The notes beneath the pieces were generated by a model. That model saw only the letters and a program-made list of their open reading frames with translations, did no database searches and had not been told where the DNA came from. The translations under genes were made by a program, and so were the position numbers. A stretch of 64,000 nucleotides of DNA from Isoptericola halotolerans (GTDB lineage: Bacteria > Actinomycetota > Actinomycetes > Actinomycetales > Cellulomonadaceae), in assembly GCF_013149785.1 (NCBI RefSeq), contig NZ_JABEZU010000001.1:372001-436000 (forward strand), given 5' to 3'. Positions 36,484 to 40,088 of this stretch are shown piece by piece. Position 1 is the first letter of the stretch. Every line of letters begins with the position of its first letter.

Positions 36484-36493
36484 GGCACTCCTC

Positions 36494-36590
36494 CCATCGG
36501 TCGTGGCGGTAGCACCGCGTCCGAGGGCTGAAGGCCCCCGCGGGTTGCTGCGGCGTCGACGTGCCACGTCACTCGGCCGCTCGGGATGGT
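36494..36590 (-). promoter_or_regulatory. candidate SAM-I (S-box)-like leader of rhodanese-metZ
   Basis: On the reverse strand the leader has the S-box-like order: GAG, a short helix GTGGC/GCCGC, AGCAACCC, a variable hairpin and GGTGCTACCGCC. CCATC (36585-36589) can pair with GATGG (36494-36498), which abuts the GGGAGG ribosome site, giving a translational OFF switch. The P2b/pseudoknot part of typical S-boxes is short or absent. An open frame of 30 codons (36572 to 36480) ending in ATGA overlap also spans it, so an attenuating leader peptide is an alternative. Confidence 0.5.
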
Positions 36591-36671
36591 CAGGGCGATC
36601 GTACGACACCGCGTCCGTTGGATGGACAGTCCGTCTCGCAGGCTGGGCACCGGGTCGGGTGCACACCGCGG

Positions 36672-37262
36672 TCAGCCCTCGTAGCGGAGCTCGACGCGAC
36701 GGTTCTGCTCGCGGGCCTCGGCCACTGCGTCCTCGTCGCCGCGCTCGTCGACCTTGAGCCGGCTCTCGCCGAAGCCCTCGACGTCCAGGTCCAGGTCGTC
36801 CCGGGCCTGCTCGATCGCTGCGGCGACGGCATCTGCGCGCCGTTCGGACAACCCTTGGTTGAACTCCGCGGTGTCGACCGTGTCGGTGTGACCGTGGACC
36901 TTCACCGTGGCGTCCTGAGGGATGTCGGCGACCAGCTCGCCGACGCGCCGGACCGCGTCGTCGGACAGCTCCGACTCCGAGGGGTCGAAGAGGATGTCGG
37001 AGGACAGCGTCACGACCGTCTCCTCGTCCTCCTGCTCGACCGTCTGCACCTCGTGGACGCTCCGGGCGGGGTCTGCCCAGGAGGTGACGGAGCGGCCCGG
37101 GTCGGACCACTCGACGATCGACTGGGCGATCTCCCGGGGCGTCGGGTCCTCGAAGCCCAGTTCCTCCGGTGTGGGCCACTCCGCGGTGGACGGGGTGGAG
37201 GCCACGAACGCCAACGTGAGCGCGGCGGCGAGGTGGATGCTGTGCGCGGGCACGCGGATCAC
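36672..37262 (-). CDS. OmpA-family peptidoglycan-associated protein
   Basis: A 196-residue secreted protein with a signal peptide (about 1-26, IHLAAALTLAFVASTPSTA), a linker and an OmpA domain (about 85-195). The wall-binding core reads ILFDPSESELS, KVHGHTDTVDTAEFNQGLSERRADAV and the tail EQNRRVELRYEG, typical of residues contacting diaminopimelate. The GTG overlaps the stop of the upstream lipoprotein by 4 bases. OmpA domains in Gram-positives anchor protein complexes to the wall; context suggests a complex with that lipoprotein. Confidence 0.88.
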   Translation of the reverse strand: MIRVPAHSIHLAAALTLAFVASTPSTAEWPTPEELGFEDPTPREIAQSIVEWSDPGRSVTSWADPARSVHEVQTVEQEDEETVVTLSSDILFDPSESELSDDAVRRVGELVADIPQDATVKVHGHTDTVDTAEFNQGLSERRADAVAAAIEQARDDLDLDVEGFGESRLKVDERGDEDAVAEAREQNRRVELRYEG

Positions 37263-37915
37263 TCCCCGGAGGTCAGCGGGACGTCGTCGAACACGGGCCA
37301 CGAGCTGCTGATCTGGACGTCGACGGCCGAGACGTCGTCCTGGGGGGCCGCGAAGAAGATCTGGAACCCGATCGACTCGCCCTGGGCCGCCTCGGCGTCG
37401 TGCCAGTTGGCGTGGTGGATCGGCTGGTACGTCTTCAGGTGGGCGCGGTCGACGAGCTGCGGCCTGTCCGTGCCCAGCAGGGTGTACACCGAGGACAGGC
37501 CGTTGCCGCTGCCCACGAACTGGGGCGTCAGGACCAGGCGTAGCTCGGTGGTGCTGCCGTCGGTGGTCAGCGACTCGATGCCGACGCGTACGTCGTCGTC
37601 GGTGCCGGGGAGGGTGAAGGTCGCGTCGGCGACGACCTGGTCGGGGTCGGCAGGCGTCACGCCGATGACATCCGTCCGGGAGGCGTCGGCGGTGGTGTCG
37701 TTCTCGGGCGCCGGGGTCGCGGCGTCGTCGTCGCTGACGTCGTCGCCCTCGTCGTCTGTGTCGGGATCGGACGGTGCCCCGTCGGTCTCGGGCTGCGTGC
37801 TGCTCTGGACGGCCTCGCCCTCGAACGTGGCGTCCTCGGTGCCGAACAGCGCGCAGCCGGACAGGCTGAGCGAGGCGAGCAGGGCGACCGGGACGAGTCG
37901 GGTGATGGTGCGCAT
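37259..37915 (-). CDS. lipoprotein of unknown function
   Basis: A 218-residue lipoprotein. AAGGAGAA precedes the ATG; the signal peptide RLVPVALLASLSLSGC has its lipobox Cys at residue 21. A very acidic Asp/Thr/Glu-rich linker covers about residues 28-85. The C-terminal domain (about 90-215) is beta-rich (DATFTLPGTDDDVRVGIESLTTDGSTTELRLVLTP...) and unassigned. It is co-translated with the OmpA-like protein. About 100 bases separate it from the kinase gene upstream. Confidence 0.8.
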   Translation of the reverse strand: MRTITRLVPVALLASLSLSGCALFGTEDATFEGEAVQSSTQPETDGAPSDPDTDDEGDDVSDDDAATPAPENDTTADASRTDVIGVTPADPDQVVADATFTLPGTDDDVRVGIESLTTDGSTTELRLVLTPQFVGSGNGLSSVYTLLGTDRPQLVDRAHLKTYQPIHHANWHDAEAAQGESIGFQIFFAAPQDDVSAVDVQISSSWPVFDDVPLTSGE

Positions 37916-38015
37916 GGCGTTCTCCTTGATCGGTGGACACCTGGTGGGTCGTCGAGCAGCCCGGAAAAGTTGCATGCGGGGGCGCGCCGATGTCATTCGA
38001 TGATGTCGGTGCTGG

Positions 38016-39260
38016 TCATGGCGTGACCCGCAGGGGAAGATCGGCCTCGAGCGGGCGGTCGCCGTCGCGAGTCTGGAGGCGTACCCGCGCCTGGCCGGTG
38101 GACGCCGGCGTGAGCGTGATCGACGGTTCGTCGGCCACGTACTGACCGGTGGGCAGCACCCAGACCCAGTGCTCGGTCCCCGCGACGTCGGCCACGAAGG
38201 TGGCTGTCTCGCCGACGGAGACCTGCGTGGGCCCCTCGATCGCCACCCGGACGGTATCGGTCCGGTCCGGTGGCGCCGGGCCGGGGCCGAGCAGCGCACC
38301 CAGCGTCAGCCCTGCGACCAGTGCCGCCGTCGATGCCGTCGCGGCGACGCGGACCGTCCGTCGCCGCCGTGGCGGTGCGTCCGGTGCGTCCTGCGCGGGG
38401 GCGGCAGCGACGGGCTGTGCGTCCTGTGGTGGGCGCGGCACGGGTGGTGGGGTGAGCGCGCGCTCGACGTCGGCGAGCCACTGTGCGGCGTCGTCGTGCC
38501 GGTCGGTGGGGTCTGCGGCCAGGGAGCGGTGCAGGGCGTCGTCCAGCGCGTCGGGCAGCTCGGCGCCGTCGCACAGCCATCGCATCAGCGCCGACATGGC
38601 CCACAGGTCGGCTCTGGTGTCGACGCGTCCCGGCCCGGCGGACTGCTCAGGCGGACGGAAGCCCTCGGTGCCGCCCGCCACGGTGAGCCCGGAGCTGACC
38701 GCCAGGTCTTTGCACATGCCCAGGTCGGCGACGAGCAGACGTTCGTCCTGGGCGACGACGCGTCCGGGCGCGGTGCCGTGCGGTGTCTCGTCGGGCGCCG
38801 CGGTCGTGGCCTCTGCCGACGTCAGCAGCACGTTGCCGGGGCTGAGGTCCCGGTGCACGATCTGCACGCGGTGCACGGCCTCGACGGCCGCTGTCAGGCC
38901 GCGGGCGACGGCGAGCACGTCGTCGACGGACGCCGTCCACCCGCTCGAGCGCAGGCGTCGCACCCGGTCCCGGAGCGTGCCCCGGTCGGCGCGCTCCAGC
39001 ACCAGGAACGGCTGCTGACCTGCCGACTCGCCGATGTCGTGCACGGCGACCACGTGCGGGCTCCGGACTCGCCGCAGCGCGCGACCCTCGGCGATGAACC
39101 GTTCGCGGACCTCGGGGTTGATGCTGTGGTTCTCCGCGAGCACCTTGACGACGACGTCGTCGTCGAGCCGGTCGTCCCGGGCGGCGTGGACGGTGGCGAA
39201 GGAACCGGCGCCGAGCACGATCCCCAGACGGTAGCGGCCGACCCGTGACGCGCCCGTCAC
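38016..39260 (-). CDS. transmembrane Ser/Thr protein kinase with extracellular Ig-like domain
   Basis: A 414-residue Hanks-type kinase. The glycine loop LGAGSF, Lys in VVVK (K39), catalytic HRDLSPGN (H136-N143) and DLG (D179-G181, in place of DFG) are present. A linker rich in Pro leads to one transmembrane helix (about 302-325, VAATASTAALVAGLTLGALL) and an extracellular PKD/Ig-like domain of about 80 residues. No PASTA repeats. The GTG start overlaps the sigma factor stop by 4 bases. It probably regulates that sigma factor or its partners. Confidence 0.88.
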   Translation of the reverse strand: MTGASRVGRYRLGIVLGAGSFATVHAARDDRLDDDVVVKVLAENHSINPEVRERFIAEGRALRRVRSPHVVAVHDIGESAGQQPFLVLERADRGTLRDRVRRLRSSGWTASVDDVLAVARGLTAAVEAVHRVQIVHRDLSPGNVLLTSAEATTAAPDETPHGTAPGRVVAQDERLLVADLGMCKDLAVSSGLTVAGGTEGFRPPEQSAGPGRVDTRADLWAMSALMRWLCDGAELPDALDDALHRSLAADPTDRHDDAAQWLADVERALTPPPVPRPPQDAQPVAAAPAQDAPDAPPRRRRTVRVAATASTAALVAGLTLGALLGPGPAPPDRTDTVRVAIEGPTQVSVGETATFVADVAGTEHWVWVLPTGQYVADEPSITLTPASTGQARVRLQTRDGDRPLEADLPLRVTP

Positions 39261-39871
39261 ATCTCCCCCAGGCGGGCCGCGACCAGCGCGCGACCCCGGG
39301 AGACCTGGGCCTTGACGGTGCCGACCGGGCGGCAGAGCCGTTCGGCGACCTGCGCGTAGGTGAGACCATCGATGTCCCGCAGCGCCACCGGTGCGCGGTA
39401 GATCTCCGGCAGGCCGGACAGGGCGTCCCGGACGCTGGCGCGTGTCGCCAGCATCGAGCTCATCCGTTCCCCGGGGCCGATGTCGTCGTCGGGCAGGGAG
39501 GTGGTGGCGCGGCGCCGGCGCAGGTGGTCCACGACGCGGCGCCGGACGATGCTGTGCACCCAGGTCGTCACCCTGGACGTCCCGGCGAAGCCGTGGATCG
39601 ACGTCGCCACCGAGATCAGCACGTCCTGCGAGACGTCGTCCACGTCGTTCTCGTCGAGGAGGGCGGCTCGTACGAAACGCCGGACCACGCCGGAGTCGTC
39701 GAGGAGCTCGACCAGCAGCTCGACGGCGAGCTCGTCGCCGTCGGCCGCGTACCGGGCGAGCGTCGCGAGGGCGTCGTCGTCGGCGGCCTCGAAGGCGATC
39801 CGGCGCGCCGTCGCGGGGTCCGCACCCTCCAGTGCCCGTGCCAGGCCGTCGAGCATCCCGTCCCCCCGCAT
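39257..39871 (-). CDS. ECF-type RNA polymerase sigma factor
   Basis: A 204-residue sigma-70-like factor. A non-canonical N-terminus of about 45 residues precedes region 2 (DVDDVSQDVLISVATSIHGF... VTTWVHSIVRRRVVDHLRRRR) and region 4 (LPEIYRAPVALRDIDGLTYAQVAERLCRPVGTVKAQVSRGR). Instead of an anti-sigma factor the next gene encodes a Ser/Thr kinase, co-translated by GTGA overlap, which suggests control by phosphorylation as in kinase-linked ECF groups. The ATG at 39871 has GGAG six bases upstream; the frame is open to an ATG at 39895. Confidence 0.87.
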   Translation of the reverse strand: MRGDGMLDGLARALEGADPATARRIAFEAADDDALATLARYAADGDELAVELLVELLDDSGVVRRFVRAALLDENDVDDVSQDVLISVATSIHGFAGTSRVTTWVHSIVRRRVVDHLRRRRATTSLPDDDIGPGERMSSMLATRASVRDALSGLPEIYRAPVALRDIDGLTYAQVAERLCRPVGTVKAQVSRGRALVAARLGEM

Positions 39872-39961: not shown

Positions 39962-40088
39962 GGTCATGAGCGCCAGCGCGAAGCCCCGGCTCGCTGGCCG
40001 GCAACCCTCCCCTCGCGGCGGGGTGCCCCGGGTGACGACCAGGCACGGCGCCGACCGGCGTCCGGCAAGCGCGGGGAGGCCCCTCCCC
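39962..40088 (+). ncRNA. SAM-IV-type riboswitch
   Basis: The leader matches the actinobacterial SAM-IV family: GGTCATGAG at 39962-39970, the P2 helix GCCAGCG/CGCTGGC, the conserved GGCAACCCTCC, a GC-rich P3 hairpin and GGGTGACGACC closing P1 near 40040. Downstream GGGGAG and CTCCCC (40073-40088) form a hairpin; the CCTCCCC arm could otherwise pair with the GAGGAGG ribosome site, suggesting translational control. S-adenosylmethionine binding would repress the aminotransferase gene at 40109. Confidence 0.85.

Follow-up and report, generated by a model that had tools for sequence, protein, structure and literature searches.

A kinase-linked ECF sigma factor and its predicted local lipoprotein target in one actinobacterial order

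STK-linked ECF sigma factors are already known as a kind and, to our knowledge, most kinase-linked ECF sigma groups are without a known target, promoter or signal. The ECF43 systems EcfP-PknT of Vibrio parahaemolyticus and EcfK-PknS of Xanthomonas citri, like the system described here, pair an ECF sigma factor with a linked transmembrane Hanks-type kinase and have no anti-sigma factor (PMC13147305, PMC8999054). In ECF43 uncharged residues that include a phosphorylatable Thr (STTA/QTTA) stand in for the acidic DAED motif of region 2.2, and phosphorylation provides the missing charge (PMC8999054). Phosphosites in the sigma2-sigma4 linker of EcfK are functional (PMC13147305). Regulation by an adjacent kinase has been predicted for the STK-linked groups ECF59, 61, 62, 217 and ECF283, some of which have an acidic region 2.2; ECF283 is actinobacterial and is typified by a Nocardioides protein (PMC8999054).

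The locus considered here lies in the window, by which we mean the whole stretch of 64,000 nucleotides that was analysed. It has the traits of STK-linked ECF systems (an adjacent transmembrane Ser/Thr kinase and no anti-sigma gene), and these are conserved in 17 of 17 loci from 15 genomes. Comparison alone suggests a promoter, a single dedicated target and a candidate phosphosite outside the ECF43 switch. A tag shared by the lipoproteins may be a ligand of the kinase.

The locus and its distribution

The features of the locus are as follows.
36491-36592, minus strand: SAM-riboswitch-like element (40.6 bits, just below the cut-off of 44.4), preceding the rhodanese/sulfhydrylase side
36672-37262, minus strand: gene for a secreted OmpA-domain protein (196 aa, GTG start)
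37259-37915, minus strand: lipoprotein gene (218 aa, lipobox LSGC)
37945-37974, minus strand: predicted ECF-type promoter TGCAACTTTTCCGGGCTGCTCGACGACCCA, 41 nt past the kinase stop codon
38016-39260, minus strand: gene for a transmembrane Ser/Thr kinase (414 aa, GTG start)
about 38019-38249, minus strand: PKD-like ectodomain of the kinase (residues ~338-414; AF2 model and PDB matches)
39257-39871, minus strand: ECF sigma factor gene (204 aa)
39962-40077, plus strand: SAM-IV riboswitch (96 bits), preceding an aminotransferase/cysteine-desulfurase-like gene

The four genes of the sequence-only reading are all present at 36672-39871, on the minus strand, and GTGA overlaps join the kinase start to the end of the sigma gene and the OmpA start to the end of the lipoprotein gene. 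It had also claimed that an anti-sigma factor is absent, and none is adjacent to the sigma and kinase genes.

The four-gene module is inserted between the gene of the SAM-IV riboswitch and the operon of the SAM-riboswitch-like element. Most congeners have an empty site there, with the two sulphur-metabolism units side by side. Both flanks are visible in 14 of the 15 congeners that lack the module, and the stretch fetched from the fifteenth shows one flank. Among the 17 genomes of the genus, the sigma factor was identified, besides the window, in G004 only, which has a complete module at that site. The element TGTCAAC...GTCTC upstream of the sigma gene was rejected as the sigma promoter. It is also kept in the empty-site congeners and reads as TTGACA on the opposite strand, which makes it more likely a part of the SAM-IV-riboswitch gene.

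Close orthologues of the sigma factor were found in 13 of 396 genomes of the order, the window's own included, and those in the other genomes share 50-66% identity with it. These 13 genomes, G004 and a Microbacterium MAG (L047) made up the survey set of 17 loci in 15 genomes, which all belong to one actinobacterial order and represent six or more of its families. In every locus (17/17) the sigma gene has a kinase orthologue directly behind it, mostly with overlapping ends, and the gene after that encodes a lipoprotein, again in 17/17. Linkage in the order sigma, kinase, lipoprotein is well above chance. Of the 16 loci that extend far enough to be judged, 12 encode a homologous OmpA domain downstream, separate or fused; the other four are without OmpA and have a single lipoprotein of 387-444 aa instead.

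Lipoprotein homologues were identified in 37 of 222 genomes of the window's family, and an OmpA gene adjoins them in all 20 neighbourhoods fetched (that of G004 among them). Pairs of lipoprotein and OmpA genes without sigma factor and kinase are common in this family; no sigma-kinase pair without a lipoprotein gene occurs among the 17 loci. Unlinked genes, which the earlier reading had named as its refutation, occur from one side only: for the lipoprotein-OmpA pair, but not for the sigma-kinase pair. The OmpA protein of sigma-less genomes often has a further, lipoprotein-homologous domain fused to it or following it (L089, L097, L099, L101, L102, L104).

The sigma factor and its kinase

The sigma factor has Pfam matches to Sigma70_r2 (residues 62-122) and r4_2 (146-195) and no region 3, the make-up of an ECF (group 4) sigma factor; its PDB relatives are ECF sigma factors. 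An extension of about 35 aa precedes region 2. The sequence-only reading was right that the N-terminus is atypical, although the extension is poorly conserved, is missing in two orthologues and so is not a defining part.

Region 2.2 is acidic in the window protein (DVDDVSQD) and in its orthologues ([A/D]-[V/I]-[D/E]-D-V-x-Q-[D/E], mostly AVDD or AIDD), with no Ser/Thr in this motif conserved across the orthologues. As the acidic residues are retained, a charge switch like that of EcfP would not be needed, and both ECF43-type activation and membership of ECF43 were rejected. The linker between sigma2 and sigma4 reads R-M-S-S (S138, S139) in the window protein and R-x-S-S in all 17 sigma factors. 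L161 and L162, the nearest relatives at class level, share this motif; the remaining ECF proteins of the alignment, L163 and L164 among them, do not. The invariant Ser-Ser is a candidate phosphosite. Near L163, the one of these last two loci that was inspected, no kinase was noted.

The kinase was identified by Pfam (Pkinase, 1.8e-23) and has K39, HRD and DLG motifs and one transmembrane segment. The substitution of DLG for DFG, already pointed out from the sequence, is shared by every intact orthologue and is not peculiar to the window gene. The extracellular Ig-like domain that had been proposed is indeed an Ig-like beta sandwich, best called PKD-like. An AF2 model built from two sequences, in which the kinase lobe is unreliable, gives it a pLDDT of ~75-83 over residues 338-414, and its best PDB matches are PKD domains of collagenases (TM 0.64-0.73 on target). 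A wall-sensing kinase of the PASTA type (PknB/PrkC) was rejected, as there is no PASTA match and the PknB_PASTA model scores far under its cut-off, on the kinase lobe.

It is conceivable that the kinase tethers the sigma factor at the membrane or has another substrate. The sigma factor would then be governed by synthesis or sequestration, with the kinase as a kinase-shaped anti-sigma factor. A sigma factor with an acidic region 2.2 should bind RNA polymerase unmodified, and in all intact orthologues the kinase lobe is short and apparently without helix alpha-G, both of which fit such a role. However, the catalytic residues and activation loop are strictly conserved in the intact orthologues and the invariant linker Ser-Ser is specific to the clade, so we regard this as unlikely and favour phosphorylation of the sigma factor.

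Promoter and lipoprotein tag

The sequence TGCAAC[C/T]-N16-CGAC-N2-A is present with identical spacing in the gap between kinase and lipoprotein genes in 17 of 17 loci (16 unique sites), with one variant (TGAAAC in L146). The motif was first seen in two genomes; a third locus, L047 of Microbacterium, was examined afterwards and matched, as did all later loci. It is absent upstream of 19 homologous lipoproteins in genomes without the sigma-kinase pair. A genome-wide search of the 15 sigma genomes gave 20 matches versus 5 for the reversed control. Sixteen of the matches are the kinase-lipoprotein gaps, two are extra sites in two loci, each before another lipoprotein gene ~3 kb upstream of the main site, and two are seemingly unrelated. 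Across the 220 genomes of the family that lack the sigma factor there is no enrichment (42 matches versus ~46 for the control, the latter counted by hand).

Conservation in the gap, absence from sigma-less loci and the lack of enrichment in sigma-less genomes make it probable that the lipoprotein and OmpA genes are under the control of the sigma factor and do not merely act as its sensors. The sigma factor very probably recognises this motif as its own promoter, and the target is essentially local. A wide regulon was ruled out at the sensitivity of this pattern, there being no excess of sites elsewhere. Autoregulation of the sigma factor via the same promoter was also rejected: no site stands immediately before the sigma gene in any locus, and feedback on sigma transcription is thus not evident. 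At L170 (G525:C1:879482-879511) a full match is followed by an inverted repeat, CCGCATCGCAGCC...GGGCTGCGATGCGG, instead of a lipoprotein gene; this is possibly a small RNA or a terminator under the same sigma factor.

The OmpA-domain protein can be assigned to the OmpA family (PF00691, 1.4e-11, above the gathering score) and has a putative peptidoglycan-associating domain. The lipoprotein has no match in Pfam. A single-sequence model of its fold is too weak, and the PDB gave no match with an E value of 0.001 or lower; its body is beta-rich and of unassigned family. Past the lipidated cysteine, however, it carries A-T-F-E (C-ALFGTED-ATFE), and such a tag recurs among the lipoproteins of the predicted sigma targets, the bodies of which fall into five classes without detectable homology (blastp 1e-3; hhalign probabilities at most 1.2). 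Nearly all of them have A-x-F, mostly then D or E, within 10 residues of the lipidated cysteine. The tags include ATFE, AEFD, AGFE, AEFD, ADFE, ATFE, ADFD, ATFD, AEFE, AEFD and AEFE; in two lipoproteins the last place is A or G. Every intact lipoprotein adjoining the kinase has A-x-F, which covers four of the body classes. The fifth class (L184, an extra gene in G525) has AYEF instead.

We did not find the A-x-F tag in any of 36 other lipoprotein N-termini of the same DNA, nor in any of 19 lipoprotein homologues from sigma-less genomes. The enrichment (Fisher p < 1e-8) is overstated, because the loci are not fully independent (L151 and L152 are nearly identical, L153-L155 are close). The tag is also short, and its retention could reflect an inherited 5' end with swapping of bodies downstream.

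Two loci show damage. In L145 (G479) the sigma and kinase frames are broken by a stop and a frameshift, and the promoter and tagged lipoprotein are still there. In L146 (G468), the locus with the variant promoter, an in-frame TAG falls inside the lipoprotein tag and sigma factor, kinase and OmpA seem intact; the stop and the promoter change are either decay or an assembly error.

One congener, G005, has at the same locus the lipoprotein and OmpA genes only, and sigma factor, kinase, promoter and tag are all missing. This joint absence appears to tie the promoter and tag to the sigma-kinase pair, in a single case that could be a loss in G005 or a gain in the window and G004. Comparison among loci thus lends support to the operon, the link between promoter and target, the tag and the joint absence in G005.

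The tag may serve other ends. It lies beside the lipid anchor, as known lipoprotein sorting residues do, and might be a signal for processing or sorting (cleavage, shedding or placement in a membrane domain) unrelated to the kinase. We find this rather improbable, given that it is missing in homologous lipoproteins of kinase-less genomes, one of them at the same locus. Tentatively, and with somewhat better odds, the tag might be a ligand of the PKD ectodomain, so that the kinase would read the product of its own sigma factor and adjust that factor via phosphorylation of the linker. A role of lipoprotein and OmpA as sensors or feedback ligands, by way of the shared tag, is possible.

The proposed circuit and known systems

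We propose a switch in which an STK-linked ECF sigma factor serves a single dedicated target nearby, with feedback through the tag, and give this circuit as a whole a probability of about 0.66. Sigma factor and kinase would be produced together. The PKD-like domain, just outside the membrane, would sense the state of the envelope and the kinase would control the sigma factor; phosphorylation of the invariant Ser-Ser in the linker is the likeliest means. The active sigma factor would read the promoter directly after the kinase gene, and the transcript would yield a surface lipoprotein, usually plus an OmpA-domain protein. The A-x-F-[D/E] tag, within ~10 residues of the lipid anchor, would be level with the kinase ectodomain, and the tagged lipoprotein would probably signal back to the kinase, forming a feedback loop. 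We infer four of these elements: reading of the promoter by the sigma factor, its phosphorylation at S138/S139, contact between tag and ectodomain, and the sign of the feedback. If the tag is indeed a ligand of the PKD ectodomain, the bacterium would gauge the amount of lipoprotein (with its OmpA partner) at its surface. This would be a self-metering homeostat for surface proteins, with exchangeable cargo and a retained promoter and tag.

The sequence-only reading had placed these genes in a sigma-kinase-envelope signalling unit, and conservation over the six or more families bears this out. It also took lipoprotein and OmpA as sensors upstream, which needs revision, as the ECF-type promoter would make them targets first; its order (OmpA and lipoprotein sense, the sigma factor responds) should be reversed or closed into a loop. 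That OmpA and the lipoprotein sense the wall upstream of kinase and sigma factor, with sigma targets elsewhere in the genome, is very improbable: surface location, operon linkage, the OmpA domain and a tag that could serve sensing would suit it, but the sole consistently placed ECF-type promoter precedes the lipoprotein, other genome-wide matches do not exceed the control, and OmpA is missing from the four loci with large lipoproteins.

In the literature searched we found neither this promoter, target and tag nor any paper that assigns a target to STK-linked ECFs of actinobacteria. The set of sigma factor, kinase and tagged lipoprotein suggests a previously unnoticed envelope-sensing circuit. 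Its parts are testable in ordinary culturable actinobacteria, and it might serve as an orthogonal envelope sensor.

Among described systems, ECF43 lacks the acidic motif of region 2.2, whereas the system in the window keeps [A/D]-[V/I]-[D/E]-D. The targets of ECF43 are polymyxin resistance or T6SS, and those predicted here are the adjacent genes for the tagged lipoprotein and OmpA. ECF59, 61, 62, 217 and ECF283 share the adjacent kinase with the window system, a likeness drawn from published description only (PMC8999054). The most similar class-level loci, L161 and L162 (38-40% identity), differ in the downstream gene, the sigma gene being followed by that of a secreted repeat (RTX-like) protein. 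The order of kinase and sigma genes is reversed where readable: in L161 the kinase gene is directly upstream of the sigma gene, and L162 is truncated where its contig ends. L161 and L162 may represent a sister system that serves a different target. Envelope-stress ECF sigma factors likewise act on envelope genes via an ECF-type promoter, but they use an anti-sigma factor, in the place of which the window locus has a kinase.
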